Shown piece after piece: positions 30,804-63,100 of a stretch of DNA of 64,000 nt (position 1 is the stretch's first letter; every line of letters begins with the position of its first letter). Source of the DNA: an uncultured Eubacteriales bacterium (GTDB lineage Bacteria > Bacillota > Clostridia > Oscillospirales > Oscillospiraceae); assembly GCA_900317425.1 (NCBI GenBank), contig ONGR01000001.1:85368-149367 (forward strand). Reading direction: 5' to 3'. A model generated the notes under the pieces. That model ran no database searches. It was not told the DNA's origin and saw nothing but the letters and a program-made list of their open reading frames with translations. The translations under genes and the position numbers were made by a program.

Positions 30804-30879
30804 GGGGGTATAGCTCAGCTGGGAGAGCGCTTGAATGGCATTCAAGAGGCCAGCGGTTCGATCCCGCTTATCTCCACCA
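30804..30879 (+). tRNA. tRNA-Ala (anticodon GGC)
   Basis: 76 nt including encoded CCA. Acceptor GGGGGTA / TATCTCC (two G-T pairs), D-stem GCTC/GAGC, anticodon stem CTTGA/TCAAG with loop ATGGCAT (anticodon GGC), T-stem AGCGG/CCGCT. The 3' 47 nt are attL: this half came from the prophage, which restores the tRNA with one change in the variable loop (GGCC here, GGTC at attR). Confidence 0.95.
30833..30879 (+). repeat. attL, 47-bp attachment repeat
   Basis: Identical to 63926-63972 except C at 30850 versus T at 63943. It covers the anticodon arm to the CCA end of the tRNA-Ala. Confidence 0.93.
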
Positions 30880-30987: not shown

Positions 30988-32121
30988 TTACAGGGCGTCC
31001 GTGATCTTCCGCAGTCCCTCGATGTCCACGTCCTGATAGTGGCGCAGCATTTCGGTGGATGTGTGTCCGATGAGGCGGAGCTTATCCTTGTCGGGAGCGT
31101 TGACCCCCTTCATCAGCGTGGCGAAGGTGTGCCGGCAGCTGTGTGGCGTGTACTTGTGATACTCCATTCCGTCCCGCACGGTGACCGGATTGCTGATTCC
31201 CAGGGCCTGCAGCAGGGCATAGAAGGCCTCGCGATATGCCTTAATTCCCATCGTACTGCCGTCCGGAGCGCAGAACACCGGACCGCTGATCTTATTCCCC
31301 ACGAGCCTGTCGATGATCGGCTGAATCTTCGGGGAGACCGTTACCACCCGATCCCGGCCGGCGTCCGTCTTGGATCCGCCCGTGAAGGCCCGCTGCTGCC
31401 GGTCATAATCCCGGGCATCCAGGGCCAGCAGCTCAGAGGGCCGGAATCCGAGATAGCACTGGGCGAGGACGTAATCCGCATAAGGAACGGTCCCCACGGC
31501 CTTTTGGATGGCCGCCAGCGCATCCATGGGCAGGCCGTCCTTGTTACCCGCCTCGCCGTTTACGTACAAATACTGCCCCAGATTGACGGTCGCAAGCCCC
31601 CTTGGGATGGCGTACTTGTAGATCAGCCCGATACACGCTTTCATTTTCTCCTGGGTGCTTTTGCTGCGCGGGCAGTCATCCATACAGTCTTGCAGGTCAT
31701 CGATCTCGATATCCGCAAGGCGATAATACCAGAGTGGCTTAAAATACCGAAAGGCGGCCTTGTAGTTGTCTATGGTAGACTTTCCCGCCCGGTGGGTAGG
31801 AATCCACTTGTCATAGGTTTCTTTGAGTGTGGGGGCCTTCTTTGGCTTGGGAGCATACCGCAAGGCGGGGAGGGCAGCCACGGCATCCCGCTTTGTCTTA
31901 AATCCGGACTTAGACCTCGTCAGACGGTGCTTCTTGCCGGCCTCATCGATTGTATACCCCAGCGTGACTACGGCAATCCAGCTCTTGTTGGGAAGCTGAT
32001 ATGCGCTGCCCTGCCCGTTTCCCCGGGACTTAGGCCGACAGGATAACGTTTGCTTTGCGCCGCATCGATGGCAGAACACGGCATCGTCCGGGATCTGAGC
32101 CCGGCATTTTTTGCACTGCAT
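30988..32121 (-). CDS. int: Tyrosine integrase with N-terminal zinc ribbon
   Basis: A 377-residue phage integrase. Residues 1-24 form a zinc ribbon with CxxC and, after DDAVF, CHRC; then an AP2-like arm-binding region (GSAYQLPNKSWIAVVTLGY), a SAM-like core-binding domain, and the catalytic domain with Arg in LGFRPSELLAL, HxxR in HSCRHTFATL, GHTS and Tyr in RHYQDVD. AAGGAGG precedes the ATG. It would recombine attP with the tRNA-Ala attB. The gene reads towards attL, as usual. Confidence 0.93.
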   Translation of the reverse strand: MQCKKCRAQIPDDAVFCHRCGAKQTLSCRPKSRGNGQGSAYQLPNKSWIAVVTLGYTIDEAGKKHRLTRSKSGFKTKRDAVAALPALRYAPKPKKAPTLKETYDKWIPTHRAGKSTIDNYKAAFRYFKPLWYYRLADIEIDDLQDCMDDCPRSKSTQEKMKACIGLIYKYAIPRGLATVNLGQYLYVNGEAGNKDGLPMDALAAIQKAVGTVPYADYVLAQCYLGFRPSELLALDARDYDRQQRAFTGGSKTDAGRDRVVTVSPKIQPIIDRLVGNKISGPVFCAPDGSTMGIKAYREAFYALLQALGISNPVTVRDGMEYHKYTPHSCRHTFATLMKGVNAPDKDKLRLIGHTSTEMLRHYQDVDIEGLRKITDAL

Positions 32122-32134
32122 GACTATACCTCCT

Positions 32135-32153
32135 TGTGCCCAAATTGGACACA
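32135..32153. other. Degenerate copy of the prophage 19-bp palindrome
   Basis: TGTGCCCAAATTGGACACA, 14 bp before the integrase ATG on the minus strand. It differs at four positions from the motif found exactly at 39334, 46804 and 52828, and keeps the outer arms. It is either a binding site for the same protein at the int promoter or a decayed copy. Confidence 0.5.
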
Positions 32154-32188
32154 ATAAAACAACTGTTCGATTGTGCGATTAGAGAAAA

Positions 32189-32210
32189 GACCGCCCGCAC
32201 TTGGGCGGTC
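32189..32210 (-). terminator. Terminator of the leftward lysogeny operon
   Basis: Stem GACCGCCC / GGGCGGTC with a 6-nt loop, followed on the minus strand by TTTTCTC, just beyond the stop of the membrane protein gene at 32227. It separates that operon from integrase. Confidence 0.75.
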
Positions 32211-32226: not shown

Positions 32227-32859
32227 TTACCGTGGCTTGCATGTTCCGCATGGTTTATATCCTGCGGCTTCGGCTTCAGCTATCGTGTACCAACCGATGA
32301 GATTCTCATCAAGAATCTTTTGGGCGTGCTGACAACTCGGATAGTGGTACTTATCTGATTCAATGCTACCCACATAGACATAGGATGTCGGCTGCGTGGG
32401 GGTAGGCTCTGGATCGGGCTCAGGTGCCGGGGTGGACCGATCCTGAGATTCTCCCGGCTCATCGGGCGTTGACACAACGAAGTCCTGTGCCGGTTTGGAA
32501 TCATTGGATTCCTGATTGTCGGCCACAATGGCGTCGTCAGAGGTATTCGGCTCAGCCTCCGAAGACTCGGGTGTGCTGGCGTTGTCCTCGGTCTCTGGGG
32601 CCTGTACTTCAGCCTGCTGGCGTGTCTCGATCGCAGACGACGGTGTGTTATCCTGCATATTGCTTGCCGATCCTCCACCGCCGAGGATGGCGCCAATCCA
32701 GATCAGACCGAACATCGCAGACAAGCCGGCCTTGACGGCGGGATGCCATCGAGGGCAATTCTTCCAGATCAGAAAGATACCCACGGGTGCAATGAACAGA
32801 AGGAGAAGAATCATGACCCACGTGCGCTGGAAGAAGGGTTTCTTTGGTACATTATTCAT
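32227..32859 (-). CDS. Membrane protein with C-terminal Cys/His metal-binding-like domain
   Basis: A 210-residue protein: two hydrophobic segments (about 15-35 and 45-65), a roughly 90-residue acidic Ser/Pro/Glu/Asp linker, then a compact end domain with YVGSIESDKYHYPSCQHAQ and CGTCKPR. That end resembles Ada-like or nuclease-associated metal-binding modules (Y-H-xx-C ... C-xx-C). Its start overlaps the end of the K+ channel gene by 8 bp, so the two are co-expressed in the lysogen. Function unknown; surface exclusion or an envelope sensor are possibilities. Confidence 0.7.
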   Translation of the reverse strand: MNNVPKKPFFQRTWVMILLLLFIAPVGIFLIWKNCPRWHPAVKAGLSAMFGLIWIGAILGGGGSASNMQDNTPSSAIETRQQAEVQAPETEDNASTPESSEAEPNTSDDAIVADNQESNDSKPAQDFVVSTPDEPGESQDRSTPAPEPDPEPTPTQPTSYVYVGSIESDKYHYPSCQHAQKILDENLIGWYTIAEAEAAGYKPCGTCKPR

Positions 32860-33583
32860 TTTCAGATATCCCCCTGTCTTTTTCAATTTCTGACATATAT
32901 CCGGCTGTAATGATACCAGCCGGTAGTGCCACCACGGCAATGCCCAGAATTGAGGACAGCATCGTGATGATCCTTCCTGCGTCTGTCACCGGGTAGATGT
33001 CTCCATAGCCCACCGTTGTCAGACTGACGGTGGCCCAGTAGACGGCGTCAAAGTAGTCCCCGAAGCTGTCCGGCTCTACGTTGAAAATGACCAAGGCGGA
33101 GATGAGGATGTAGCTGACAGCGAGGCTAAATACGGCCAACAGAGCCGTTTTCTGCTTGCGGATCACATTTGCAATGATAATCATGTTCCTGCTGTACCGG
33201 AGCGCCTTGAACGCCCGGAATACCCGGAAGGCGCGGAGCAGTCGCACGACCTTCAGAATCCTGAAACTGCCGGACAGGGCGGCAAAAGAGGGGAGAATGC
33301 AGAGAAGGTCAATGATAGCCAGCGGCGTGAGAGGATAGAGCAGAAAAGAGACGGCGCCCTTGTTCAGCTTGATATCCGCCGTCCAGAGCCGCAAGATGTA
33401 ATCGATAATGAAAATTCCTGTTGTAATCCACTCCAAGACAGTAAATGCGGGAGTGGGTTCTTTGAAGGCCAGAGGAATAAGACTCGCAACGATAACGATG
33501 ATCATTGCCACATCATAGACCGAGCTGGCCTTGTCCTTACCGCTGCTGGCCTCAATGATTTGGAATACTCTCTTTCGTATCAT
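32852..33583 (-). CDS. Voltage-gated potassium channel (Kv type)
   Basis: A 243-residue six-helix channel. S1-S3 lie within residues 22-98; S4 has a basic residue every third position (Arg108, Lys111, Arg114, Arg117, Arg120, Arg123, Lys126, Arg129); the pore has the K+ filter TVGYGD at 190-195 between S5 and S6. It is compact with almost no cytoplasmic C-terminus. It starts 12 bp after the CI-like repressor stop on the same strand, so it is probably expressed from the prophage state. A full channel in a phage lysogeny operon is unusual; superinfection exclusion or altered membrane potential is an inference. Confidence 0.92.
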   Translation of the reverse strand: MIRKRVFQIIEASSGKDKASSVYDVAMIIVIVASLIPLAFKEPTPAFTVLEWITTGIFIIDYILRLWTADIKLNKGAVSFLLYPLTPLAIIDLLCILPSFAALSGSFRILKVVRLLRAFRVFRAFKALRYSRNMIIIANVIRKQKTALLAVFSLAVSYILISALVIFNVEPDSFGDYFDAVYWATVSLTTVGYGDIYPVTDAGRIITMLSSILGIAVVALPAGIITAGYMSEIEKDRGISENE

Positions 33584-33595
33584 GGCCGCACCCGA

Positions 33596-34192
33596 TCAGA
33601 ACTTCCCACGGAGTTCCACGACCTTGCCGATAATGCGGACCGGCAGGGAGGAGATCTCCTCAGCGCTGTAATACTTGACCTCATAGGACGGATTGTTCGG
33701 GATCAGCGCGATCCCATGTCCGTCTTTTTTGATGCGCTTGCAGGTGGCCTCGTACCCGTTGACCAGCACGATGGCGGTATCGCCGGTGTCGGCGTCATCC
33801 TGTTTGCGGACAATGACCACGTCACCCTCGCAGATCCGGGGCTCCATAGAGCTGCCCTTTATCCTCAATCCGAAGAACTCTCCGGTGGCGGCCAGCTCCG
33901 GCTCGATCTCCTCATAGTCCACGATGTCCTCGATGGCCTCTATCGGGATCCCGGCGGCGACGGCGCGGTAGACGGGAATTTTAACACCATGGCGCTTTGT
34001 GGTCCGTTCTCCTCCGACGACATAGTCAACACTGACTCCGAAATAGGCGGCAATCTTCTTCAGAGTGGGGATGTCTGGCTCATACTTGCCTGTCTCATAT
34101 TCTGACATCGTTGCCTGGCTTACATTGATAGCTTTTGCCAGCTCCGCCTGTTTGATTTTGTTGGCCTGTCGCAGCTCTTTTATCCGATTCAC
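33596..34192 (-). CDS. CI-like repressor (XRE HTH + S24 peptidase)
   Basis: A 198-residue LexA/CI-type regulator. Residues 1-60 are an XRE helix-turn-helix (QAELAKAINVSQATMSEYETGKYEP). The C-terminal S24 domain has the Ala-Gly cleavage site in AVAAGIP, catalytic Ser in KGSSMEP and Lys in YEATCKRI, so it should self-cleave with RecA during SOS. GTG start with TTTGGAGGTGA upstream. It heads a leftward operon with the K+ channel and faces the rightward early promoter. Confidence 0.93.
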   Translation of the reverse strand: MNRIKELRQANKIKQAELAKAINVSQATMSEYETGKYEPDIPTLKKIAAYFGVSVDYVVGGERTTKRHGVKIPVYRAVAAGIPIEAIEDIVDYEEIEPELAATGEFFGLRIKGSSMEPRICEGDVVIVRKQDDADTGDTAIVLVNGYEATCKRIKKDGHGIALIPNNPSYEVKYYSAEEISSLPVRIIGKVVELRGKF

Positions 34193-34210: not shown

Positions 34211-34356
34211 ATCGGATATACCTATATGGCAAGATACAACAAACTGCACAATTCGTAAAGACCAATTCGGTAAAATCAAACAAAAAGTAAAGAATTGACT
34301 TGACATATCGGTAAAACCGATATATATTTTCATACACAGACATCGGGTTTTCCGAT
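34211..34356. promoter_or_regulatory. CI/Cro operator region
   Basis: Repeated sites of the form ATCGG-N5-CCGAT: 34211-34225 (ATCGG/CCTAT), 34308-34320 within an 8-bp-armed palindrome at 34305-34323, and 34342-34356 (ATCGG/CCGAT), plus a half site TTCGGTAAAA near 34266. They lie between the divergent repressor and cro genes. Confidence 0.8.
34300..34328 (+). promoter_or_regulatory. Early rightward promoter
   Basis: TTGACA, 17-bp spacer, TATATT. The spacer is occupied by the perfect palindrome ATATCGGT-AAA-ACCGATAT, so repressor binding would block polymerase directly. Confidence 0.85.
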
Positions 34357-34379: not shown

Positions 34380-34571
34380 ATGAATATCCGGGAGCTCCGC
34401 AAGGCCGCAGGCCTTACTCAGAGCCAGCTGGCGGAGAAGGTCGGCGTTGCTCAAGCGACGGTTGCCGAGTGGGAGCGTGGCGACTATTTCCCCAGCGCAC
34501 AGAAGCTGCCGTCTATTGCCGAGGCACTCGACTGCACAGTTGGCGATCTCTACCGCACCGACACCTTATGA
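34380..34571 (+). CDS. Cro-like XRE regulator
   Basis: 63 residues, a lone helix-turn-helix domain (GLTQSQLAEKVGVAQATVAEWERGDYFPS). AAGGAGGTGG sits before the ATG. First gene of the rightward early operon, opposite the CI-like repressor, so it is probably the lytic-side regulator binding the same operators. Confidence 0.88.
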   Translation: MNIRELRKAAGLTQSQLAEKVGVAQATVAEWERGDYFPSAQKLPSIAEALDCTVGDLYRTDTL

Positions 34572-35716: not shown

Positions 35717-36505
35717 TTGGGCGACAAATTAAAGCTGGTTCGAAAGTCGGGCTTTACGACGCTGCCAAACGCGGTCGTCCGGGATCCTCGCCTCAACTTC
35801 CAGGCCAAGGGCCTGTTTTGGCTCATGTTCTCCCTGCCAGACGACTGGGAGTTCTCCATCGGCGGCCTGGTCGCCGTGGCCGGAGGAGGCAGAGGGAACG
35901 GCAAGGACGCTGTGAGAGCGTCGCTGAATATGCTGGAAGATGCTGGGTATCTCTTGCGGGAGCAGCGGCATGATGGGGCCGGAAAATTTACGGGCAATAC
36001 CTTCGTCCTCTACGACGAGAGCCTTATTCCGATGCAGGGCGAAGCGGGGGAAAAACCACCGTTGTCGGGTTTTCCGTCAACGGTTTTCCCGTCAACGGAA
36101 AAACCGTCGTCGGTTTTTCCGACGGTACTAAATAAAGATATACAAAGTAATACCCCCCATAATCCCCCCAAGGGGGGACGGCGTGCGCGATCCCCCGAGT
36201 GGAAGGAAGCGCCAGACTGGAAGCCGGAGCGATTCGCACGGTTCTGGTCATTCTATCCACGGGAGGGGCGCAAGGATAAACAGAAGGCTATCCGGGCATG
36301 GGACAAGCTCAAGCCGGACGATGCCACGCTGAAACTCATGGCGGACGCCCTCATCAAGCTGAAGGAGTCGGACGAATGGCAGCGCGGCATCGGGATCCCG
36401 TATGTCAGCACGTTCCTCAACGGCCATCGGTGGCTGGACGCGGAGTCGCTGGATGTGCCGCCCGATGATCTGGAGGTTGAGGAGGTGGCCGTTGGATGGA
36501 GATAA
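35717..36505 (+). CDS. Phage replication initiator (HTH domain)
   Basis: 262 residues with a TTG start after GAGGAGGAAAG. Residues about 15-80 are a winged-helix domain of phage replisome organisers (FTTLPNAVVRDPRLNFQAKGLFWLMFSLPDDWEFS, then VRASLNMLEDAGYL). A low-complexity middle (about 115-140) is encoded by repeats that look like origin iterons. The C-terminal part (FWSFYPREGRKDKQKAIRAWDKL...GIPYVSTFLNGHRWLD) is the helicase-loader-type segment seen before DnaB genes. It overlaps dnaB by 10 bp. Confidence 0.82.
   Translation: MGDKLKLVRKSGFTTLPNAVVRDPRLNFQAKGLFWLMFSLPDDWEFSIGGLVAVAGGGRGNGKDAVRASLNMLEDAGYLLREQRHDGAGKFTGNTFVLYDESLIPMQGEAGEKPPLSGFPSTVFPSTEKPSSVFPTVLNKDIQSNTPHNPPKGGRRARSPEWKEAPDWKPERFARFWSFYPREGRKDKQKAIRAWDKLKPDDATLKLMADALIKLKESDEWQRGIGIPYVSTFLNGHRWLDAESLDVPPDDLEVEEVAVGWR
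36049..36152. other. Candidate replication origin: iterons plus AT-rich tract
   Basis: Inside the initiator gene, four consecutive 15-bp units begin at 36067, 36082, 36097 and 36112 (GGTTTTCC-GTCAAC-like, some inverted: GGAAAAACCGTCGTC). They are followed by an AT-rich stretch, 36127-36152. Iterons then an AT-rich unwinding region inside the initiator gene is the lambda O/ori layout. Confidence 0.6.
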
Positions 36506-37884
36506 CCAATGACCGCCGCCTGGACGCCGAGCAGGCCGTCCTGGGATCGCTTCTGATCGACGAGAGCGTGGTGGGTAGGGTCCTGTCCACCGTGGATCCC
36601 CGGGACTTCCTGAGCGAGAATAACCGGCTGATCTATCAAGCAGCCCGAGACCTGTTCCGCGCCGGCGAGCCGGTTGACCCGGTTACCATCCGCGGCCGGC
36701 TGGGTCAGGACTTTACCGACTACCTGATGCAGTTGATCCAGATCACCGTCACCAGCGCCAACTGGCGGGTCTACGCGAAGATGATGCACGAGGAGGCCAC
36801 GCTGGCTCGGATCCGGGACGCCGCGCAGGATCTCACCACGGCCGTCAACCTGGACGAAGCCAGGCCGCTGGTGGCATCGATGACGCAGTATCTCAGCGAG
36901 AGCCAGCAGGTGGAGACCTGGAGTATGACCGATATCCTGACGCATTTCCGGGAGGCCCAATCCTCGACGGAGACGGTCAAATATGTCACCTACGGCATCA
37001 AGGAGCTGGACGAAGGCACCTACACGGAGCCCGGTGACGTGGTGATTATCGGTGGCTATCCCTCCGACGGCAAGACAGCTCTGTCGCTCATGTGGGCCTA
37101 TCACATGGCGAAGGATTACCGGGTCGGTTACATATCCATGGAGACCAGCAAGCCGAAAATCGGTGACCGTATGGTGACCCAGGCGATGCAGATCAGCTTC
37201 GACACGATCAAGCGCCGGACAATGGGGGAGGGGGACTGGGCCAATCTGGCCACAAAGTCCTCGGACTTCACCGACCGGAATCTCCACGTCGTCTCCGTCT
37301 CCGGCTGGACCGTGACAGACATCTCCGCCTATTGCCAGGCCATGGGCTTTGATATCGTGATCCTGGACTACGTGCAGCTGGTGCAGCCGGATCCCGGCCG
37401 GAGGTACGGCACGGATGCTGCCGCTATGGCTGCCGTGTCACGAGACCTGCACCGCTTTGCTCAGAGCACCGGTACCCTGGTAATCGAGCTGGCCCAGCTG
37501 AGCCGTCCTCCAAAACAGGTCGGCTGGCGGGAGCCTGATATGCACGACCTCAAGGAGACAGGCCAGTTTGAGCAGGACGCCGATACGATCTTCCTACTCT
37601 ACCAGCCCAAAGAGGGCACCAAGACGAAAGACGGCCGGACCCTGGACCCCGACACATCCCGCCTCATCAAGATTGCCAAGAACAAAGAGGGTCGCCGTGG
37701 CAAATGGCCGCTGCACTTCGACGGCCAGCATCAGACCTTCAGCGTGATGGTGGACGATCAGGGCCGCGTAGTAATGCTGCAGCTGGTGAACAAAGGCAAA
37801 AAAGCCAAGGTAAAGCGCGGCACTCAGATCCCCGGACAGACAGATCTCGCAGAGGTCGACGAGGACGAGGAGATGCCATTTTAA
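36496..37884 (+). CDS. Replicative DNA helicase DnaB
   Basis: 462 residues: N-terminal DnaB domain (about 1-105, AEQAVLGSLLIDESVV), linker, and RecA-type motor domain with Walker A GGYPSDGKTA (186-195), Walker B FDIVILDYVQL and arginine-rich QADTIFLLYQP-type C-part (FEQDADTIFLLYQPKE). It overlaps the initiator gene, the standard loader-helicase pair of a phage replication module. Confidence 0.95.
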   Translation: MEITNDRRLDAEQAVLGSLLIDESVVGRVLSTVDPRDFLSENNRLIYQAARDLFRAGEPVDPVTIRGRLGQDFTDYLMQLIQITVTSANWRVYAKMMHEEATLARIRDAAQDLTTAVNLDEARPLVASMTQYLSESQQVETWSMTDILTHFREAQSSTETVKYVTYGIKELDEGTYTEPGDVVIIGGYPSDGKTALSLMWAYHMAKDYRVGYISMETSKPKIGDRMVTQAMQISFDTIKRRTMGEGDWANLATKSSDFTDRNLHVVSVSGWTVTDISAYCQAMGFDIVILDYVQLVQPDPGRRYGTDAAAMAAVSRDLHRFAQSTGTLVIELAQLSRPPKQVGWREPDMHDLKETGQFEQDADTIFLLYQPKEGTKTKDGRTLDPDTSRLIKIAKNKEGRRGKWPLHFDGQHQTFSVMVDDQGRVVMLQLVNKGKKAKVKRGTQIPGQTDLAEVDEDEEMPF

Positions 37885-38511: not shown

Positions 38512-39291
38512 ATGAGGACAACTGTAATTGTAAACAACAAGGGCGGCGTCGGGAAAACCGTCACGAGCATCAATATGGCGGCGATCCTCGCCACCGACCA
38601 CAAAAAGCGGGTGCTTCTGATCGATGCCGATAGCCAGCACAACGCCACGAGTTTCTTTGGCGCCGATCAGGACGCAGGCAACCTGTCGGACTATCTGATG
38701 AGCCGAAATGAGCCGTATTACCCCAGCATGATTCAGTCCACGGATATTCCGGGACTGGATATCCTGGCAGGAAACGATGGCCTGATGGCGCTGGACATCT
38801 CCGCCATCAACGGCGGCCACGTCAACAAAATGGCGCTGGTGGGTCTCTTTGCCGCCATCGCTGAGGACGACGCCTACGATCACATCATCGTGGACTGTCC
38901 GCCCGCGTTTAATGCGGCCTCCACGGCGGCTCTGGCGGCATGCGACGAGGCTGTCATTCCCACCAAGCTGGACGCTTTCTCCATGGAGGGTATGGCCAAC
39001 GTTCTGTATCAGATTCACACGATGCATCAAGTCAACCCACGACTGCGGGTTGTTGGCTGTCTCATCACCATGTGGAACAAAACACAGAAGGAATACGAAG
39101 CTCAGCTGCGCAAGTTCAATGACCGGATGCTACCGGTTTACAAGCAGATGATTCGCAACAGTGAAAAAGTGGACGGCATGACCCACAGTGGAGATCCCCT
39201 GACGATCTACAGCCCCCACAGCTCGGCCGGCGTGGACTATCGCCGCTGGGTGCGGGAGTACCTGGGAGAGGAGGACGGCAAAAATGGGTAA
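38512..39291 (+). CDS. parA: ParA family partition ATPase
   Basis: 259 residues, a Soj-type ParA without N-terminal HTH. Deviant Walker A KGGVGKT at 10-16 (signature Lys10), Walker A' LIDADSQHNAT, Walker B IIVDCPPAF. ParA uses ATP-dependent DNA binding to move ParB-bound cargo. It overlaps parB by 8 bp. AAACGGAGG precedes the ATG. In phages, ParAB usually means maintenance as a plasmid-like replicon at some stage. Confidence 0.93.
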   Translation: MRTTVIVNNKGGVGKTVTSINMAAILATDHKKRVLLIDADSQHNATSFFGADQDAGNLSDYLMSRNEPYYPSMIQSTDIPGLDILAGNDGLMALDISAINGGHVNKMALVGLFAAIAEDDAYDHIIVDCPPAFNAASTAALAACDEAVIPTKLDAFSMEGMANVLYQIHTMHQVNPRLRVVGCLITMWNKTQKEYEAQLRKFNDRMLPVYKQMIRNSEKVDGMTHSGDPLTIYSPHSSAGVDYRRWVREYLGEEDGKNG

Positions 39292-40921
39292 GGGATTTAA
39301 TCTTGCAGACACGTTTGGCGCGGCCCTGCAAAATGTGCCCAATTCGGGCACAGCACAGATAACGCCGATTGATATTGACCTTCTGTATGCAGATCCCAAA
39401 AACTTCTATCGTATCGATCCCGATGATGTCAGCAGGCTAGCCGATTCAATTTCCGATGTCGGTGTCCGTCAGCCGCTGGATGTGCGGCCACATCCGGATC
39501 TGCCGGGCAGCTATATGGTCATCAGCGGCCATCGGCGCCGCCAGGCAATCCTCCAGCTGGTTGCAGATGGACGAGAGGATCTGCGAATGGTGCCGTGCGT
39601 TGTTGATACGACTGAGGGTACGCCAGAGGTGTGGGAGTATAAGCTGATCCTCGGCAATGCGGAGACCCGCAAGCTGTCTGACGCAGAGTTGGCCGAGCAG
39701 GCGGCACACTTGACAGACGTGCTCTACGCCCTAAAGCAGCAAGGCTATTCTTTCTCCGGTCGCATGCGTGACATCGTGGCGGAAGCCTGCCAGGTCAGCA
39801 AGTCCAAGCTGGCCCGGCTCAAGGTTATCCAGGAGAGACTCTACGACCCCATCAGACGGGGTTGGGAGGCGGGTATCCTCTCTGAGGCATCCGCCTATCT
39901 CCTTGCCCAGCAGGATCCAAAAATCCAGGAAACGGTACACCGGAAGTATAGCTCGACCGCATGGGATATGACAACGGAAGACCTCCAGAAGGTCATTGAC
40001 CGGTGTAAGTCCGACGCCTTGGATAAGTCTATTGACAAGCTGGATGAGATCATTCGGAAGAAAAAACAGCCAGAACGGTCTCCTGTGGATGCCGGCAAGG
40101 ACTATGTAGAGCAGCTCAGAAAAGAAGATGAGAGATTTTTCAACCAGCTCCGCAAGGTGGCGTCCAGTTTTATCTGCGGGCTGGTGCGAGATCTCCCCAC
40201 TACCAGACGCGACAGCATTGACCGCCTGCGCATTGCGAATCGTTCTCGTGGCTTTGCTGGCGGGGGATGCGACGGCGACGGTTCCAACAAGGGCCTCACG
40301 CTGGATTCCCTTGGCAAGCACCCCATCACTCGGTCTTGGACCGACGTGTGGGACATGCTGGCTCTGATTGCTCTCCACGATTATACTCAGAATCGTGAGG
40401 CAAAGGCGCAGAACCTACGGGAGCGGGACAATCTGAATGATTTGCGGGCGAGGCTGGAGTCTGCGCCCATGGTCAGATGGAATCATAGGCAGGTCAAGCC
40501 GCCTGAGAACGCGACGCTCCTCACGAGCTACTTTACCAGCGCAGGCAGCATAGTCTACCGCGTCGCCGTTTGGACCGGTAAACGCTGGGTAGACCCTGCA
40601 AATCAAAAAAAGGAGCTGACAGGGCTCCAGGTCGATAGATGGATGCGGATTCCGGTGTTCGGACAGGTGTTCGTGGAGGATTCAACGCCTGCTGCGGTGC
40701 CGGCTGCGGCTGCTTCGCTGTCCGGCTGGTGCCCTGCAGATACACCGCCTACACATCCCTGTGACTGCGTGGTAGAATTCGACCTGGGAGACGGGCATCT
40801 GGATAAGATTCTTTGCCGATGGGACGGCGATACATATTGTTGGCGCAACGACAGCCACCGTGTTGATATGCAGCCGGTCAAGTGGATCGAGTTGCCGGAG
40901 GATGCGGAAGGAGGCTCGTGA
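39284..40921 (+). CDS. parB: ParB-like protein with C-terminal tandem DUF551-like modules
   Basis: 545 residues, much longer than ordinary ParB. Residues 24-110 are the ParB/Srx CTPase-like domain (YADPKNFYRID, then SGHRRRQAI at 81-89). Residues about 145-200 hold the HTH (FSGRMRDIVAEACQVSKSKLARLKVIQ). A lysine-rich linker follows. Residues about 410-475 and 485-545 are two similar tryptophan-rich units (W...P...VYRVAVWTGKRW...VDRWMRIP and WCPADTPP...ILCRWDGDTYCW...VKWIELP) resembling DUF551. A candidate parS lies within its own codons 17-23. Confidence 0.85.
   Translation: MGKGFNLADTFGAALQNVPNSGTAQITPIDIDLLYADPKNFYRIDPDDVSRLADSISDVGVRQPLDVRPHPDLPGSYMVISGHRRRQAILQLVADGREDLRMVPCVVDTTEGTPEVWEYKLILGNAETRKLSDAELAEQAAHLTDVLYALKQQGYSFSGRMRDIVAEACQVSKSKLARLKVIQERLYDPIRRGWEAGILSEASAYLLAQQDPKIQETVHRKYSSTAWDMTTEDLQKVIDRCKSDALDKSIDKLDEIIRKKKQPERSPVDAGKDYVEQLRKEDERFFNQLRKVASSFICGLVRDLPTTRRDSIDRLRIANRSRGFAGGGCDGDGSNKGLTLDSLGKHPITRSWTDVWDMLALIALHDYTQNREAKAQNLRERDNLNDLRARLESAPMVRWNHRQVKPPENATLLTSYFTSAGSIVYRVAVWTGKRWVDPANQKKELTGLQVDRWMRIPVFGQVFVEDSTPAAVPAAAASLSGWCPADTPPTHPCDCVVEFDLGDGHLDKILCRWDGDTYCWRNDSHRVDMQPVKWIELPEDAEGGS
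39334..39352. repeat. Candidate parS-like site 1 (inside parB)
   Basis: TGTGCCCAATTCGGGCACA: 7-bp arms TGTGCCC / GGGCACA around AATTC. It is repeated exactly at 52828-52846, and 18 of 19 bases recur at 46803-46821. It encodes VPNSGT of ParB. Confidence 0.65.
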
Positions 40922-46831: not shown

Positions 46832-47185
46832 ATGACCAGGGAACAGCAATACAAGACCCAGATGCAGGCGCTGGGGATTTATGACCCTGCGTTTGATCCT
46901 GCGATCCATACCCTGGCGATTATGGAGCGTGAGCTGCAGCGCACGATGAAGGCTTGGAAGGAAACTGCACCGGATAAGAAAAGCGCTCCTTCTGTGGAGC
47001 ATGATCTGTACGCCGTGATTCAGTCTCAGCGCAAGGATATCCTGGCGCACCGGGATGCTCTGGGGCTGACGCCCAAGGCCCTGCGCCGCCTGCAGGCAAA
47101 GGGGAGCGCCGGCCCTGCCGGTGATCCTGTCACGGACGGTATCGGAGCCAAACTGGACGCCCTCGCAAGGCGGTGTGGTCTGTGA
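46832..47185 (+). CDS. Terminase small subunit, P27 family
   Basis: 117 residues with the P27 signatures YDPAFDPAIHTLAIMERELQR and LYAVIQSQRKDILAHRDALGLTPKALRRLQ. TerS recognises the packaging site and recruits TerL. AGGAGGGTG precedes the ATG. The end overlaps the terL start by 13 bp. Confidence 0.88.
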   Translation: MTREQQYKTQMQALGIYDPAFDPAIHTLAIMERELQRTMKAWKETAPDKKSAPSVEHDLYAVIQSQRKDILAHRDALGLTPKALRRLQAKGSAGPAGDPVTDGIGAKLDALARRCGL

Positions 47186-48984
47186 TTCCGTACAGCGTCT
47201 ACAACGCGCCTCACTTGAGGATCGCGCTGGACTACGCTCAGGCCGTCGCCTCGGACGAAACCACATGCGAGCTGACACGGCTGTGCTGCCGGCGCTTTCT
47301 CAACGACATAGAGGATCCCCGCTGGGACTTCCGTCCAGGCCTGGCGGAGTTCTGCATCGAGATCATGACGGGCCTGTTCTGCTTCATGCAGGGCGAGCGC
47401 CTGGACGGCACGCCTCTCCGGGGGTGCCCCCTGGAGCTGATGCCGTGGCACACTTTTGTGACCTACAACGTGTGCGGTTTCTTTCTTCCTGGTACGGAGA
47501 TCCGGCGTTTTACCGAGGCCGATATCTTCGCCCCGCGAAAGACGGTCAAGACCACCTTTGCCGAGGCTCTGCAGACGGCCCTGGTTATGTACTACCGGCG
47601 CTCCGGCGCCAAGGCCAAAACGGTGGCCGGATCCCTGAAACAGGGTATGGAAGGATTTGACTGGCTGGTCTATAACTTCAAGCTCCTGGGCCTGGTGGCA
47701 GACAACAACCCGCCCGGCAAGCTACGGCTACTAAACAGCAGCCTGGGCCACAGCATCGAGGGCCCCTTCTGGGGCGGCTACATCGATCTGGAAACCCTGG
47801 CTTTTAAACCAGAGCTGTTCGACGCCTTCAATGCCGCGTTCGTCCACCTGGATGAGCTGGAGTTATACAAGGATGCCCGGCCTTACACCAGACTGCGCGA
47901 CTCCATGAAGGCCTACACCAACAAGCTTCTCTCCTGCACTTTCACAGCCGGTGACGACGGCACCGGATTCGCCGCCCAGCACCGGGACTACATGGAGAAG
48001 ATCCTCCGCGGCACCGTCACCGGCCTGGACGCCGACCGGACCTTCGTGTTTATGGCCGAGGCGCCAAGAGGGGAGGACGGCGAGGTGGACTATACCAATC
48101 CGGAGGTCCACCGTGCGGCAAACCCCGCCTACGGCATCACGATCCGTCCGGACGACATGTTGGCGGCAGCCCTCCAGGCGGAGCACAATCCGACGCTCCG
48201 CAAGGAGTTCTTCACCCGCTCGCTTAACCTGTTTGTCTCCAGCTTCAGGGCCTGGTTTGACGTGGAGGAGTTCCGGCGCAGCGATCGGCGCTACGACTGG
48301 AGCCAAGCGGAGCTGGCCCAGCTGGTCAAGTCCTGGTACGGCGGCGCGGACCTGTCCAAGCTGCACGATCTGACGGCGGCCGACATCGTGGGCGAGATCC
48401 CCGCCAAGTTGGCAGCCACACCGGACTGGACGCCTCCGGAGGATGTGCTGGTCATCGTGCCGCACTGCTGGTTTCCCCGGACGGCGGCGGCGGAGAAGGC
48501 CGACAAGGACAATATCCCGCTGTTCGGTTGGCAGGATGACGGCTGGCTGGACATGCCAAACGAGCCCAGCATGGATCCCACGGAGCCGGTCAAACAGTTC
48601 AAGAGCTGGCAGGCCTCCAGTTTCCGGATCCGGAAGGTTGGCCACGACCGGAAATTTGCCCGGAAGTACTACACGGCCATGAAAAAGGCCGGTTTCTCCG
48701 TGGTGGACCAGCCGCAGCTTTACCTGCAGAAAAGCGAGGGCTTCCGTTACATCGAACACAAGGCAAAGATTGGCTGTCTCTACTACTGCCACGCCGAGCC
48801 GTTTGAATACTGCGTCTCCAACGTCAGAGCCCAGGAAAAGGTGGACGACGCGGTACAGTATGACAAGATTTCACCCACCAGTCGCATTGACGTATTTGAC
48901 GCGGCGGTGTTTGCCACGGTGCGGATGCTGATCGACAGCGACAAGCTCAGCGACGCCGCCCGGTGGCTCGGAAAGGAGGAGTGA
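47173..48984 (+). CDS. Terminase large subunit
   Basis: 603 residues: ATPase with Walker A-like PRKTVKTTF (the usual glycine before Lys is Val here), Walker B-type FVHLDELELYKD, and nuclease domain with late acidic residues (IDVFDAAVFATVRM). The motor cuts and pumps DNA into the prohead. GTG start within the terS end; a second GTG at 47182 is also possible. Length and order are normal for HK97-type phages. Confidence 0.92.
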   Translation: MWSVIPYSVYNAPHLRIALDYAQAVASDETTCELTRLCCRRFLNDIEDPRWDFRPGLAEFCIEIMTGLFCFMQGERLDGTPLRGCPLELMPWHTFVTYNVCGFFLPGTEIRRFTEADIFAPRKTVKTTFAEALQTALVMYYRRSGAKAKTVAGSLKQGMEGFDWLVYNFKLLGLVADNNPPGKLRLLNSSLGHSIEGPFWGGYIDLETLAFKPELFDAFNAAFVHLDELELYKDARPYTRLRDSMKAYTNKLLSCTFTAGDDGTGFAAQHRDYMEKILRGTVTGLDADRTFVFMAEAPRGEDGEVDYTNPEVHRAANPAYGITIRPDDMLAAALQAEHNPTLRKEFFTRSLNLFVSSFRAWFDVEEFRRSDRRYDWSQAELAQLVKSWYGGADLSKLHDLTAADIVGEIPAKLAATPDWTPPEDVLVIVPHCWFPRTAAAEKADKDNIPLFGWQDDGWLDMPNEPSMDPTEPVKQFKSWQASSFRIRKVGHDRKFARKYYTAMKKAGFSVVDQPQLYLQKSEGFRYIEHKAKIGCLYYCHAEPFEYCVSNVRAQEKVDDAVQYDKISPTSRIDVFDAAVFATVRMLIDSDKLSDAARWLGKEE

Positions 48985-48987
48985 CCC

Positions 48988-50145
48988 ATGGGCCTGTTCA
49001 GAAAACGAAACCAGTCCCTGCTCGGGCTGTATCTCAGCGGGTCTGATAGCACACCGCCCAGCGGGTATACCAGACTTTTGGATGCGCCGGAGGTGGTGGC
49101 CTGCATTGACAGGATCACGGCGATCATTTCCAGTTCAACGATTTACTTGATGCAGAATACGAAACAGGGCGACAAACGCGTGCGGTTTGGCCTGAGCCGC
49201 CTTGTGGATATCGACCCGTGGCCCGGGCACGGTACCCGTCAGACGTGGATGAGCTGGATCGTGTCCACCATGCTGGGGGAGGGCGACGGAAACGCGTTTG
49301 TCTATCCCGTGTATCGGGACGGACGGTTTCGGGCCCTGGTTCCTATGCCCGGTGCTACGCCCAGTTCCATGGGCGGTGACGATTATATCGTGCAGTGGCG
49401 CGGTGAACGGCTGGATCCTGACGAGGTGCTACACTTCCGGCTCTTCGCCGACCTGGATCATCCGTGGCGCGGGCGAGGCTATCGTGTGCAGGCATCCACT
49501 GCGGCGGCGAGCCTCAAGCAGACCGACGAGCTCAAGCGCGCGCTCAGTAGCCCCAAATATAAGCCTCCGCTGATCGTCTCCGTCAACACGGACAGCGATC
49601 TGAGCGACGACGAGAAACGGGAGGATCTCCGGAAGAGGTACCTGGAGGACAGCTCTACCGGCAAGCCCTGGATCCTGCCGGCTGATCTTTTCAAGGTTTC
49701 CCAGGTTCGCCCCCTGACACTGACTGATCTGGCGGTCAAGGACACCGTGGAGCTGGACAAGAAAACCGTTGCCGCAATCTTCGGCGTACCGCCGTTTCTG
49801 CTCGGCCTGGGGGCGTTTAACAAGGACGAGTACAATACCTTTATTCGCACCGTCGTTGTTCCCATCTGTCAGGGTATTGAGCAGGAGTTGACGCTAAAGC
49901 TGCTGCTCAGTGACGAGATGTACTTTGTGTTTAACCGGCGCCGCCTATATGCCTATGACATGCAGACCCTGGTCGACATCGATCTGGCCATGTCTGATCG
50001 AGGCTATGTCTGCGGCGATGAGGTCCGGGAGGACGCCTTCCGGGATCCGGCGGGGCTGACCGAATTCCGCCCGCTGGAAAACTATATCCCCTACGACAAG
50101 GCCGGCGACCAAAAGAAACTGAATCAAAGCAAGGAGGATGAGTGA
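48988..50145 (+). CDS. HK97-family portal protein
   Basis: 385 residues. The middle shows VYPVYRDGRFRALVPMPG and the HFRLFADLDHPWRGRGYRVQAS segment, and a C-terminal GVPPFLLGLGAFNKDEYNTFIRTVVVPICQGIEQELT block: the classic HK97 portal pattern. It forms the dodecameric DNA channel. GGAGGAGTG before the ATG; 3 bp after terL. Confidence 0.93.
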   Translation: MGLFRKRNQSLLGLYLSGSDSTPPSGYTRLLDAPEVVACIDRITAIISSSTIYLMQNTKQGDKRVRFGLSRLVDIDPWPGHGTRQTWMSWIVSTMLGEGDGNAFVYPVYRDGRFRALVPMPGATPSSMGGDDYIVQWRGERLDPDEVLHFRLFADLDHPWRGRGYRVQASTAAASLKQTDELKRALSSPKYKPPLIVSVNTDSDLSDDEKREDLRKRYLEDSSTGKPWILPADLFKVSQVRPLTLTDLAVKDTVELDKKTVAAIFGVPPFLLGLGAFNKDEYNTFIRTVVVPICQGIEQELTLKLLLSDEMYFVFNRRRLYAYDMQTLVDIDLAMSDRGYVCGDEVREDAFRDPAGLTEFRPLENYIPYDKAGDQKKLNQSKEDE

Positions 50146-50146
50146 G

Positions 50147-50737
50147 ATGCCGCCCATGGAATTGCCCGAAAACCTCACCATGCGGACCCGGCGCACGGAC
50201 TTCAAGACGCGCCAGGATGGCAAGGACCTGATTATCGAGGGCTATTTTATCGTTTTCAACCAGCCCTACTACGCCTATGAGGATATGGAGGAGGTCATTT
50301 CTCCTCATGCCCTGGACGGGGCCGACACGAGTGATGTCCGCGCCCTTGTCGATCATCTGTCCCATCTTGTTTTGGGACGCAGCACGGCAAACACGCTGAC
50401 CTTCAGCGTCGACAATATCGGTGTATTCGGCTCCATCAGGATCAACGCCGCTGACACCGACGCCACAAACCTTTATGCTCGCGTCCAGCGGGGTGACGTC
50501 GATCAGGCGAGCTTTGGCTTCGAGGAGGGGACCGTTGCATACACCGAATTGCCCGGCGGGCGGTATCGGCGGGAAATCCAGTCGATCAAGAAGCTATGGG
50601 AGCTCAGCGTTTGCACCTTCCCGGCGTACGAGCAGACGTACGTCGGAGCTCGCGGCAGAATGGACGAAGATATCCGGAAATCGGTTGTCCGCGCTGCCAA
50701 AGAAAAATTGAAAAGGAGATTCAAACATCATGCTTAG
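50147..50737 (+). CDS. HK97-family prohead protease
   Basis: 196 residues. FKTRQDGKDLIIEGYFIVFNQPY...EEVISPHAL is the protease opening; His in LVDHLSHLVLGRS and Ser in DVDQASFGFE are the likely catalytic pair. It matures the capsid by trimming the scaffold part of the major capsid protein. AAGGAGG favours the ATG at 50147 over 50138. It overlaps the capsid gene by 8 bp. Confidence 0.9.
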   Translation: MPPMELPENLTMRTRRTDFKTRQDGKDLIIEGYFIVFNQPYYAYEDMEEVISPHALDGADTSDVRALVDHLSHLVLGRSTANTLTFSVDNIGVFGSIRINAADTDATNLYARVQRGDVDQASFGFEEGTVAYTELPGGRYRREIQSIKKLWELSVCTFPAYEQTYVGARGRMDEDIRKSVVRAAKEKLKRRFKHHA

Positions 50738-52427
50738 ACTTTTGATGCTGCAGCGGCAGCGTACCGCGCTGCAGACCCAGCTGAAACAGCTGCGCACCCG
50801 GCGCACCGAGCTGAAGACCCGTGAGACCCAGCTGCAGGAGCAACTGGAGAAGCTGCCCGAGGATGCCTCCATGGATGAGATCAAGTCCCTGCAGGATCAG
50901 GTGGACGATCTGACCAGACAGCAGAATGAGGTGGAGGACCAGATCGAGGAGACCAACGCCAACATCGAGAAGGTGGAAAAAAACATCTCTGAGGCTGAGG
51001 CCTCCCAGGGCTCCGTGCCCAATGATGATGACGATCCCCGTCAGCCTGCGATGCAGCCCGCAAATGACAGCGGCTCTTTCCGTTGCCGCAGCCGCTGCTT
51101 CGCCAGCCGCAGCGCCCGAGATGCCTTCTATGGCCGCTCCGAGGTGCGGGAGTTCCTGGGCCGCGTCCGCTCGATGCTGGGTAATCAGCCGGGCTCCCGC
51201 CGCACCGTGAACGGCGCCGATCTCACTATCCCCACCGTTGTCCTGGATATCATCCGCGACAACCTGAACAAGTATTCCAAGCTGCTGCCCTATGTCAGCC
51301 TGAAGCCCGTGTCCGGTCGTTCCCGCCAGAACGTGATCGGCGACATTCCCGAGGGCGTCTGGATGGAGATGACCGGTGTCCTGAACGACCTGACCTTCAC
51401 TGTCAACGACGTGGAGATGGACGGCTTTAAGGTCGGCGGTGTCATCATCATCCCCAATTCCTACCTGGAGGATAGCGACATCAACCTGGGCGAGGAAATC
51501 CTCTATATGCTGGGTCAGAGCATCGGCATGGCGCTGGATAAGGCCATCGTTTACGGCAAGGGTGCCGGTCAGAAGATGCCCATCGGTATCATGACGCGCC
51601 TCGCTGAGACGACACAGCCCTCCTATTGGGACGCGAATCGTATGCCCTGGATCGACCTTCACTCCAGCCACGTCATCAAGCTTAACCTCCTCTCTGAGGT
51701 CGGCACGGACTTCTTCACTCCGTTGCTGGCTGCTCTGGCCAAGGCTAAGCCCAAGAAGGATCAGGGCGAGAAGGTCTGGATCATGAATGAGGCCATGCGC
51801 AACACGCTCATGATCAAGGCCCTCGCCTTCAACGCGGCGGCTGCCCTGGTATCCCAGCTGAACGACACAATGCCGGTCGTGGGCGGGAAGATCATCACGC
51901 TGGACTTCATGCCGGACAACAACATCGTTGGCGGTTATCTTGCCCGGTACCTGCTGGCGGAACGCCAGGGCAGCGAGTTCGGTTACTCCGATCTGCCCAT
52001 GTTCATTCAGGACAAGACGGTGTTCAAGGGCACTGCCCGTTACGACGGTCAGCCCATCTTCGGCGAATCCTTCGTCGCTGTGAGCGTCGACAACACCAAT
52101 GTTGTCACCGCCATGGACTTCGTATCTGACTACGCCAATCAGCCCATGAACGCCCTCATCGTTACGGCTGCTGCCGGCTCCGCCAATGGCAAGACGGTCC
52201 TCACCGTCGCCGGTGCCGTGTCCGGCAGCCCCACCCTGAAGTACAAGGCTGGCCATCTGCCCGTCGGCATCAACGTGGGTGATAAGGTGACCGACTTCGA
52301 GGCTCTGACCTCCGGTACTACTGCAATCACTGCCGTGGCCGGTACGCCCATCACCGTGGTAGAGCTGGACAAGGCTGGCCGCGTGATCTCCCTGGGCTAC
52401 GTGACCAGCGTCCCCAAGGCGTCCTAA
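50730..52427 (+). CDS. HK97-fold major capsid protein with C-terminal extension
   Basis: 565 residues. Residues 1-95 are a coiled-coil scaffold (delta) region (QTQLKQLRTRRTELKTRETQLQEQLEKL), expected to be removed by the protease near the Arg-rich FRCRSRCF. Residues about 130-470 are the capsid fold (TVVLDIIRDNLNKYSKLLPYVSLKPVSG, then NAMRNTLMIK-like segment). The last 95 or so residues (TAAAGSANGKTVLTVAGAVSGSP...) form an extra beta domain after the normal end, perhaps a surface decoration. Confidence 0.92.
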   Translation: MLRLLMLQRQRTALQTQLKQLRTRRTELKTRETQLQEQLEKLPEDASMDEIKSLQDQVDDLTRQQNEVEDQIEETNANIEKVEKNISEAEASQGSVPNDDDDPRQPAMQPANDSGSFRCRSRCFASRSARDAFYGRSEVREFLGRVRSMLGNQPGSRRTVNGADLTIPTVVLDIIRDNLNKYSKLLPYVSLKPVSGRSRQNVIGDIPEGVWMEMTGVLNDLTFTVNDVEMDGFKVGGVIIIPNSYLEDSDINLGEEILYMLGQSIGMALDKAIVYGKGAGQKMPIGIMTRLAETTQPSYWDANRMPWIDLHSSHVIKLNLLSEVGTDFFTPLLAALAKAKPKKDQGEKVWIMNEAMRNTLMIKALAFNAAAALVSQLNDTMPVVGGKIITLDFMPDNNIVGGYLARYLLAERQGSEFGYSDLPMFIQDKTVFKGTARYDGQPIFGESFVAVSVDNTNVVTAMDFVSDYANQPMNALIVTAAAGSANGKTVLTVAGAVSGSPTLKYKAGHLPVGINVGDKVTDFEALTSGTTAITAVAGTPITVVELDKAGRVISLGYVTSVPKAS

Positions 52428-57130: not shown

Positions 57131-57830
57131 TTTTTATTTGGATGGCGTCTCCTGCCGGCGATATGGGATCTCCGTCTCTGGCGAGGATACCTTCAACGGC
57201 CCGGAGCGTGACGTGGAATCGCTGGAGATCCCCGGTCGCAACGGAGATCTGACCCTCGATAACAAGCGGTTCAAGAATATTCCCATCCCGTACCCGGCCA
57301 TTGTGCTGGGCAACTTCAAACGGAATGCAGCCGCAGCCCGGGCATGGCTCCTGTCCGTCCCTGGATACCGCCGCCTGGAGGACAACTACCATCCCGACGA
57401 GTTCCGTCTGGCGAAGTATAAGGAGGGGCTGGAGTTTAAGCCCTGGGCGAACAACCATTCTGGAGAGGTTACAATCACCTTTGACTGTGCGCCTCAGCGC
57501 TTCCTCAAAAGCGGGGAGGATCCCGTCGAGTTTACCGAGCCCGGTGTGCTGATCAATCCTACGCTGTTCACGGCGCTGCCTCTGATCACCCTTACCGGTG
57601 ACGGCGCTGGCGAGCTGATTGTCAACGGTCACATTATCCAGATTTCCGACGTGGGCGGCAGCGTGACGCTCAATCGGGAGATCCGGAGGGCCTACGCCGG
57701 TACGACCAGGCGAGATTACACCATGACCGGCCACTTTGATTGGCTGGATCTGGTGCCGGGAGAAAACACAATTTCCTTTAACGGCGGCATCAACGCCGTC
57801 AGTATCATCCCAAGGTGGTGGACCGTATGA
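57123..57830 (+). CDS. Distal tail protein (Dit)
   Basis: 235 residues. LHDFYLDGVSCRRYGISVSGEDTFNGPERDVESLEIPGRNGDLTLDNKRFKNI is the Dit N-domain. No ATG fits: the TTG at 57123 has GGAGG 8-9 nt upstream and overlaps the tape measure stop; a second TTG six bases earlier is possible. The C-terminal part is galectin-like beta. It is the hub between tail tube and baseplate. Confidence 0.85.
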   Translation: MHDFYLDGVSCRRYGISVSGEDTFNGPERDVESLEIPGRNGDLTLDNKRFKNIPIPYPAIVLGNFKRNAAAARAWLLSVPGYRRLEDNYHPDEFRLAKYKEGLEFKPWANNHSGEVTITFDCAPQRFLKSGEDPVEFTEPGVLINPTLFTALPLITLTGDGAGELIVNGHIIQISDVGGSVTLNREIRRAYAGTTRRDYTMTGHFDWLDLVPGENTISFNGGINAVSIIPRWWTV

Positions 57831-62558: not shown

Positions 62559-62600
62559 TTGAAAAAGTTTGGAATTGACATTTCGGCTTACAGGGAATGA
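62559..62600 (+). pseudogene. 13-codon remnant resembling the start of a GH25 lysozyme
   Basis: TTG start, then KKFGIDISAYRE and stop. KK-x-GIDIS is the usual opening of GH25 muramidase endolysins (next expected residues would be the W-Q-G-type loop). The stop overlaps the holin upstream region. It is probably a relic of an ancestral lysin, replaced by the CHAP enzyme downstream. Confidence 0.45.
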
Positions 62601-62617
62601 GAAAGGAAGATACACAA

Positions 62618-63100
62618 ATGAAAACTGAAACCACAACCATCTCCGCCGTCATTGCGGCGGCCCTGGGCGCTCTGCTCAGCTACTGCGTCCAACTGCTTAT
62701 CCCGCTGATCGTGCTGATCCTGGTCATGCTGCTGGACTACGCCACCGGCATGACAAAAGCATGGATCCGGGGCGAACTGTGCAGCCGGATTGGCGTCAGG
62801 GGAATCCTGAAGAAACTGGGCTATATCGTCACCGTAGCCGTGGCCGGCGTCATGGACTGGCTGATCAGCTACGGTCTCAAGAGCGTGGGGATCGATTATA
62901 AGCTGCCGTTTCTCTTTGCGGCCATTGTCATGATCTGGCTCATCATCAACGAGCTTATCAGCATTCTCGAAAACGTGGCGGCCATCGGCGGCCCGACGCC
63001 GCCCTTTGTCACCAAACTGCTGAGCAAATTGAAGAACACCGTGGAGGACAAGGCCGGTGCCGCAGCCGGCGACAGGGAGGAGGTGCCCGACGATGACTGA
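62618..63100 (+). CDS. Phage holin
   Basis: 160 residues, three or four transmembrane segments (about 10-45, 70-95, 105-125) with LLDYATGMTKAWIRGEL, typical of the toxin secretion/phage lysis holin family (TcdE-like). It forms inner-membrane holes that release endolysin. GAAAGGAAG lies before the ATG; an earlier in-frame ATG at 62597 has no ribosome site. It overlaps the endolysin by 8 bp. Confidence 0.9.
   Translation: MKTETTTISAVIAAALGALLSYCVQLLIPLIVLILVMLLDYATGMTKAWIRGELCSRIGVRGILKKLGYIVTVAVAGVMDWLISYGLKSVGIDYKLPFLFAAIVMIWLIINELISILENVAAIGGPTPPFVTKLLSKLKNTVEDKAGAAAGDREEVPDDD

Follow-up and report, generated by a model that had tools for sequence, protein, structure and literature searches.

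A described counterpart of the locus reported here is the lysogeny module of Streptococcus thermophilus phage TP-J34, which consists of an integrase, an accessory gene, a metalloproteinase, a CI repressor and a divergent cro. The accessory gene, ltp, encodes a lipoprotein that is described as transcribed in the prophage and that mediates superinfection exclusion by blocking DNA injection (PMC3952083). Potassium (K+) channels in viral genomes are mentioned in passing in two other papers (PMC8269230, PMC10294663), and the literature searched, which included few subscription journals and preprints, yielded no study in which a phage lysogeny module carries a voltage-gated channel. Here we describe a prophage in a 64,000-nucleotide stretch of contig ONGR01000001.1 from an uncultured Eubacteriales bacterium (the window), in which the slot held by ltp in TP-J34 is occupied by a gene for a six-helix voltage-gated K+ channel. 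Cargo in lysogeny modules is already known; what is new is a full voltage-gated channel as the tenant. The unit comprises the following features.

33596-34192, minus strand: CI-type repressor of 198 aa with a helix-turn-helix (HTH) domain and an S24 peptidase domain (HTH_3 and Peptidase_S24 in Pfam; PHROGs)
32852-33583, minus strand: six-helix voltage-gated K+ channel of 243 aa (Pfam, phmmer, alignment of S4 and filter, AlphaFold2, Foldseek; phrog_7872 at 2.8e-36)
32227-32859, minus strand: membrane protein of 210 aa with two hydrophobic stretches and a C-terminal Ada-like domain, here called sunset (PF02805, 25.5 bits against a cut-off of 23; profile of the domain against the solved Ada N-domain, 1.9e-5)
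32189-32210, no strand assigned: strong hairpin, a possible terminator, between the sunset gene and the integrase (terminator scan and folding)

The repressor, channel and sunset genes follow one another on the minus strand and fill exactly the range, 32227-34192, that the initial annotation had delimited. As that annotation had also noted, the channel begins (ATG at 33583) 12 bp past the repressor stop on the same strand, and a membrane-tethered, metal-binding-like protein, whose ATG lies at 32857-32859, overlaps the channel end by 8 bp. Judged from the reading frames, the gene layout is that of an operon. The hairpin that follows has a folding energy of -21.5 kcal/mol on the minus strand (z -4.0), with its U run partly paired into the stem. 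The scans found 4 promoters and 5 terminators, slightly over the shuffled means (2.1 and 2.5), among them a promoter-like site for the plus strand at 34300-34328 and one minus-strand terminator-like site inside the channel gene.

The channel protein matches Ion_trans (8.6e-30) and Ion_trans_2 (6.5e-17) in Pfam. Its S4 carries arginine or lysine at every third position, with the spacing originally described and one more residue than the eight first counted (nine, at 108, 111, 114, 117, 120, 123, 126, 129 and 132), and the predicted K+ selectivity filter is present as TTVGYGD at residues 189-195. The top phmmer match was human KCNQ5 (2e-24), and 251 distinct PDB sequences matched at E<=1e-3. An AlphaFold2 model built from a 30-row alignment (pLDDT 84.5, pTM 0.63) retrieved KCNQ, Kv4 and Kv1 structures in Foldseek (top E 9.7e-10, probability 1.00). 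The S4, the filter and the fold of sensor plus pore place the protein among the six-helix Kv channels of the Ion_trans family, and the Pfam matches, the S4 and filter and the structure model led us to discard the idea of a broken or chance open reading frame. Residues 16-235 match phrog_7872, a family of unknown function. No viral structure in BFVD matched at E<=1e-3, the plausible weaker matches being short channels 78-149 residues in length, and no lipobox was seen by eye.

To find other phages with such a channel, 50,697 phage records were searched with the window channel by tblastn, which returned 13 records. Among those whose surroundings were read, the neighbouring genes identified Dulem virus 33 (65%), PLE2 (two records, with context taken from one), one Efs 1-1-1 contig, which is an Enterococcus faecalis prophage adjoining chromosomal genes, and the archaeal virus Humcor1 as phages or prophages; JNU_P5 was added when the Enterococcus channel served as query. 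In Dulem virus 33, PLE2, JNU_P5 and the Efs contig the channel is flanked by the repressor and the integrase, all on the same strand; in Humcor1 it lies elsewhere. In Dulem virus 33 a sunset-type membrane protein follows the channel, so that the triplet of the window is repeated. In Dulem virus 33 and the Lactobacillus phages PLE2 and JNU_P5 the gene is annotated as 'ion transporter' or 'ion transport protein', and no functional work on the PLE2 and JNU_P5 channels was found in the literature searched, where subscription journals and preprints are poorly covered. A second Efs contig (OR846613) gave a 52-residue match. A Listeria-labelled contig, 'Bacteriophage sp.' MT836734 and one Acinetobacter 'MD-2021a' record were rejected as phages on account of their chromosomal-looking neighbours. 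Matches in Aeromonas LAh phages, Acinetobacter ME3, Streptomyces BillNye and others were confined to the pore region, and several of these proteins are annotated as Kef-type or two-pore K+ channels.

Scans of viral contigs with the window or the Dulem virus 33 channel as single query returned no relatives, these searches being too narrow; an alignment of 12 channels (A1) returned 37 IMG/VR loci and at least 554 genome loci; from the latter, the 80 with the highest scores were kept. Neighbouring genes were labelled with small hidden Markov models made from seed proteins rather than with curated libraries, and a lysogeny module was called where a same-strand repressor was accompanied by a downstream integrase, at a distance of up to 3 kb in the window clade and up to 6 kb in a second clade described below. 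Such a module surrounds the channel in 24 of the 37 IMG/VR loci, in 2 of 26 new loci from an order-wide search and in 1 of 13 from a family search. It was also called in 5 of the best 80 genome loci, a lower bound because 17 of them have less than 1 kb on one side. Two loci at 36-37% identity (L002, L052), the window itself (L001) and seven weaker order-wide matches lacking a locus are left out of these counts, which include some loci found by more than one search (for example, L039/L124 and L040/L131, identical on the tree) and some IMG/VR near-copies (L089/L106, identical; L091/L092, nearly identical).

With the window and Dulem virus 33 included, lysogeny modules total 34, and in 33 of them the channel comes after the repressor and before the integrase. 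The commonest arrangement is repressor-channel-integrase (23), followed by repressor-channel-sunset-integrase (5), repressor-ImmA-channel-integrase (3), repressor-sunset-channel-integrase (2) and one other. The triplet whose recurrence the initial annotation had proposed to look for thus exists outside the window, in a minority of modules and in two gene orders. In 23 measured IMG/VR loci a median of 71 bp separates repressor from channel, and what remains of the repressor-integrase interval has a median of 213 bp, indicating that the channel is often the sole gene in the slot. An apparent placement of the channel upstream of the repressor in some phages was dismissed as overlap with an over-extended start codon.

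The remaining loci are more varied. Three IMG/VR contigs (L087, L092, L107) carry the repressor and stop no more than 218 bp further on. By eye, a second recurring place was recognised at the lysis end of three phages (L098, L100, L104), where the channel is antisense to the late genes and near endolysin-like genes. Further inspection by eye showed a 72-75 aa HTH protein just before the channel, lysis genes ahead of it and an IS30-like transposase after it in two loci (L078, L105; the channel frame is split in L105), the channel adjoining an integrase on the opposite strand in two (L094, L076), a position near terminase-like genes in one (L102), and no phage genes close to the channel in two (L097, L099). 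A mobile element (L055, on G056:C36) lines up, in this order, an ImmA-like protease, one further gene, the channel and a serine recombinase; as none of its genes was tagged as a repressor, it stands outside the 34.

The channel evolves under purifying selection. Of 20 hand-picked pairs, 14 allowed dN/dS to be calculated, with values of 0.045-0.32; the pair at 0.32 has 4 differences. The filter reads TT[VM]GYGD in 46 of 46 copies in phage context, 12 of which were labelled by hand, and T[TS][VMI]GYGD in 106 of 110 other copies (three depart, with AAVGYGD, TTVGFGD and TALGYSN, and one is not covered), in scans that target conserved peptides near the filter and so favour intact copies. The copy with TALGYSN (L063, the same gene as L049) lacks the basic residues 126 and 129 of S4, and its channel is perhaps no longer K+-selective. 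On a quick LG+G4 tree of 156 rows (2 of 158 were too short) the label phage or other changes 24 times, against a shuffled mean of 39.7, and at least 10 changes are forced by starred branches. These changes mean that the gene has crossed many times between phages and chromosomes, in a direction that the counts do not give; some groups, such as L088 and L091 to L095, contain phage rows only.

A second clade of channels occupies the same slot. An alignment of Enterococcus and Lactobacillus channels (A2) returned 42 IMG/VR loci, and in 36 of these the channel follows the repressor and precedes the integrase; four members from IMG/VR are 27-31% identical to the window channel. The Enterococcus-type label is based on a channel (L011) identical to that of the E. 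faecalis phage record OR846605. Twenty-four Enterococcus-type channels that are at least 85% identical stand alongside 7 repressor HTH types and 3 integrase types. When 56 Enterococcus-type prophages were chosen through the neighbouring metalloprotease instead of the channel, the slot held a channel in 26, one of two lipoprotein families in 8 and 7, other kinds of gene in 4, 2 and 2, and nothing in 7; one of the other tenants matches DUF4352. The metalloproteinase of this type is missed by the ImmA model and was recognised by eye. One contig (IMGVR_UViG_2684622596_000002; L118, L120) carries two different channel genes.

Sunset proteins are concentrated next to the channels, both in phages and in chromosomes, an unexpected observation and the hardest part to explain. 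The hydrophobic stretches of the window protein span residues 13-31 and 41-59, and its C-terminal domain, in keeping with the metal-binding character first proposed, scores above the Ada_Zn_binding cut-off. A profile of the sunset domain matched solved Ada N-domain structures at 1.9e-5 to 4.5e-5, the fold match to Ada being weak (E 0.63). A histidine and three cysteines (H-C-C-C) are invariant in 16 aligned sunset domains, and only the three cysteines in another alignment of 13. A weak PADLOC match to PD-T4-6 (2.4e-5) covers residues 55-159, which form the linker. Of 23 sunset matches across 157 loci, the window excluded, 22 are no more than 500 bp from the channel, against an expected fraction of 0.21 of the matches (p 1.5e-14, kinship ignored). 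The 22 include three that served as seeds for the search model (L003, L043, L045), and L129, L133 and L202 are near-copies of one another. As background, 147 genomes of the order gave 119 matches, and the window's own genome has no match besides the neighbour of the channel. A same-strand sunset neighbour within 800 bp occurs in 20 of 158 loci, with at least 15 changes on the tree.

The architectures of the sunset proteins vary and include short membrane-anchored forms. In some chromosomal neighbours a catalytic domain precedes the sunset domain: Pfam identified a DNA/RNA non-specific endonuclease in one (L139), whose sequence is shared by eye with two others (L142, L170), and a metallo-beta-lactamase in another (L147), to which a further one (L208) is similar by eye. 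DUF4236 is present in the sunset neighbours L086 and L122. A plasmid of rumen Aristaeella (NZ_CP069422, L069) carries a channel (35%), two sunset-domain proteins and a gene annotated ComEC/Rec2 within ~3 kb.

The element that carries the unit is, as first proposed, a prophage. It is about 33 kb long and complete, with attachment (att) repeats and genes for integration, repression, replication, packaging, head, tail and lysis, the lysis pair having been recognised by eye. Its other features are as follows.

30804-30879, plus strand: tRNA-Ala (GGC), the integration target, whose 3' end is attL (ARAGORN)
30833-30879, plus strand: attL, 47 bp, the tRNA-Ala 3' end with CCA (repeated at 63926-63972 with 1 mismatch)
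30988-32154, minus strand: tyrosine integrase of 388 aa with an N-terminal zinc ribbon (Phage_integrase 4.7e-11, Zn_Ribbon_1 1.9e-6, phrog_1 5.8e-46)
34380-34571, plus strand: divergent Cro-like HTH protein of 63 aa (Pfam, PHROGs)
35717-37884, plus strand: replication initiation protein and DnaB-like helicase (Pfam, PHROGs)
46832-52427, plus strand: small and large terminase, portal, head protease and major head protein (PHROGs)
55097-59671, plus strand: tape measure and tail genes (PHROGs, in a search that left out the open reading frame at 57030-57830)
62597-63854, plus strand: holin-like membrane protein and endolysin-like protein, beside attR (by eye)
63926-63972, plus strand: attR, a copy of the tRNA-Ala 3' end (repeat of attL)

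ParA- and ParB-like genes lie at 38512-40921 (Pfam, PHROGs) in this phage, which has an integrase too. By eye, two relatives (G000:C26 and G233:C1) begin with the same cysteine pattern as the integrase with its N-terminal zinc ribbon.

The channel is most likely lysogenic-conversion cargo that has been recruited recurrently and protects the lysogen. Because it lies 12 bp behind the repressor on the same strand, it would be co-expressed with CI in the dormant phage, and we consider it very probable that it is an accessory protein made in the lysogen. Once made, it would conduct K+ and open on a change in membrane voltage, probably depolarisation, and the lysogen would be protected when a second phage or another injury depolarises its membrane, either by a K+ efflux that restores the membrane potential or by a K+ loss that arrests the infected cell too early for the rival to multiply. 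The sunset protein, anchored in the membrane, may be an accessory partner of the channel. The anti-phage role is read from the slot alone, and its main support is the presence of ltp, a proven superinfection-exclusion gene, in the same slot of TP-J34, in line with the view of the initial annotation that genes at this place often protect the lysogen from other phages. Taken as a whole, the chain of lysogen expression, gated K+ conduction and anti-phage benefit is credible and somewhat short of probable. A broader version is unlikely, at least in its entirety: that temperate phages of Clostridia and Lactobacillales repeatedly captured full voltage-gated K+ channels behind their repressors as sensors of the depolarisation caused by rival DNA entry, answering by K+ flux, partly with a sunset surface partner in a two-gene unit that is also chromosomal and sometimes includes nuclease or metallo-beta-lactamase domains.

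Several results weigh against a protective role tied to the phage. Ahead of the repressor, the promoter scan found no sigma-70-like consensus promoter on the strand of that gene, and the terminator scan calls the hairpin at 32189-32210 terminator-like only for the plus strand; the lack of a consensus promoter for the operon and of a minus-strand terminator after it lowered our estimates for lysogen expression and for the anti-phage chain. The top NCBIfam match is a hyperpolarisation-activated archaeal channel (46.9 bits, far below the cut-off of 300), so that gating of either sign is conceivable, and no PADLOC model matched the channel at E<=0.1. Seven IMG/VR loci have window-like repressors (43-59%), and none of the six with a visible slot has a channel. 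The host genome contains a second element, and a related genome contains one, whose integrases are 72% and 62% identical; no channel appears in the 13 kb read, nor in the part read of two near-identical contigs with 35% integrases. This absence beside similar repressors and integrases marks the channel as optional cargo and no fixed partner of the window repressor. Finally, 75 of the best 80 genome relatives, at 58-70% identity, lie outside a detected lysogeny module, consistent with a more general physiological role.

The main competing explanation accordingly keeps the channel as lysogen-made cargo and has it serve the K+ or membrane-potential balance of the cell, or its electrical signalling, without being specifically connected to rival phages. 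This is a realistic possibility, though we lean slightly away from it. Besides the chromosomal relatives just described, it draws on the occurrence of such a channel at E<=1e-50 in 36 of 394 genomes surveyed in the order, among them that of the window, on the mixing of phage and other copies on the tree, on the one other host gene above the Ion_trans_2 cut-off and on the three phages with the channel at the lysis end. Taken alone, however, it leaves unexplained why the other tenants of the Enterococcus-type slot include lipoproteins, as in the ltp slot of TP-J34. Improbable in our judgement is a reading in which channel and sunset protein form a functional pair that handles incoming DNA at the cell surface. 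In this reading the sunset domain would anchor or target surface proteins, nucleases among them, while the channel would read or answer the membrane event. The tight clustering of sunset matches against their genomic background and the catalytic domains ahead of some sunset domains argue for such a pair, whereas the 20 of 158 loci with a close same-strand neighbour indicate that the channel usually works without sunset, the clustering includes model seeds and near-copies, and the architectures are very mixed.

A chance pick-up of a host gene that is functionless for the phage is highly improbable. The initial annotation had counted against its own reading an absence of the channel from related prophages together with silence in the lysogen, or close orthologues confined to host chromosomes as in a chance pick-up. 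In part this was found, since the channel is missing beside similar repressors and integrases and most of the best 80 genome relatives lie outside a detected lysogeny module, yet channels recur in this slot of many other temperate phages. One small slot is repeatedly occupied in two channel clades, the channel is retained while repressors and integrases change, and the low dN/dS and the conserved filter and S4 likewise argue against an idle passenger. The observation itself is confirmed, and the protective interpretation placed on it partly supported.

The recurrence of the channel in the same place of many dormant viruses suggests a benefit to the infected cell, perhaps protection from rival viruses. 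If the anti-phage role is true, membrane voltage would be a signal by which resident viruses detect a competitor, with a nerve-type channel as the device; even if the channel is cargo for host fitness, temperate phages would spread voltage-gated K+ channels among bacteria in a form tied to lysogeny. PLE2, which is reported to induce spontaneously in Lacticaseibacillus casei BL23 (PMC9600169), offers a testable setting for what bacterial Kv channels are for, and the sunset-channel pairing offers a candidate partner for an unexplained protein family.

Among known systems, the nearest solved relatives of the window channel by sequence and fold are animal Kv7 (KCNQ) channels, to which it is 21-25% identical in structural alignments and whose long cytoplasmic tail with a calmodulin site it lacks. 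Viral pore-only K+ channels of the Kcv type are likewise virus-encoded proteins with a K+ channel pore, but they have two helices and no voltage sensor, whereas the window protein has a full sensor with S4. Voltage-gated K+ channels of clostridia outside phages belong to a common family that shares the S4 and the filter; unlike the window channel, those among the best 80 genome loci lie outside a detected lysogeny module in all but five. PLE2, JNU_P5 and Dulem virus 33 share with the window the repressor-integrase slot and its strand, PLE2 and JNU_P5 being members of the more distant clade (PLE2 is 33% identical over 77% of the window query). Lastly, Ltp of TP-J34 is a surface lipoprotein that stops DNA injection, whereas the tenant of the same slot in the window is a six-helix ion channel without a lipobox.

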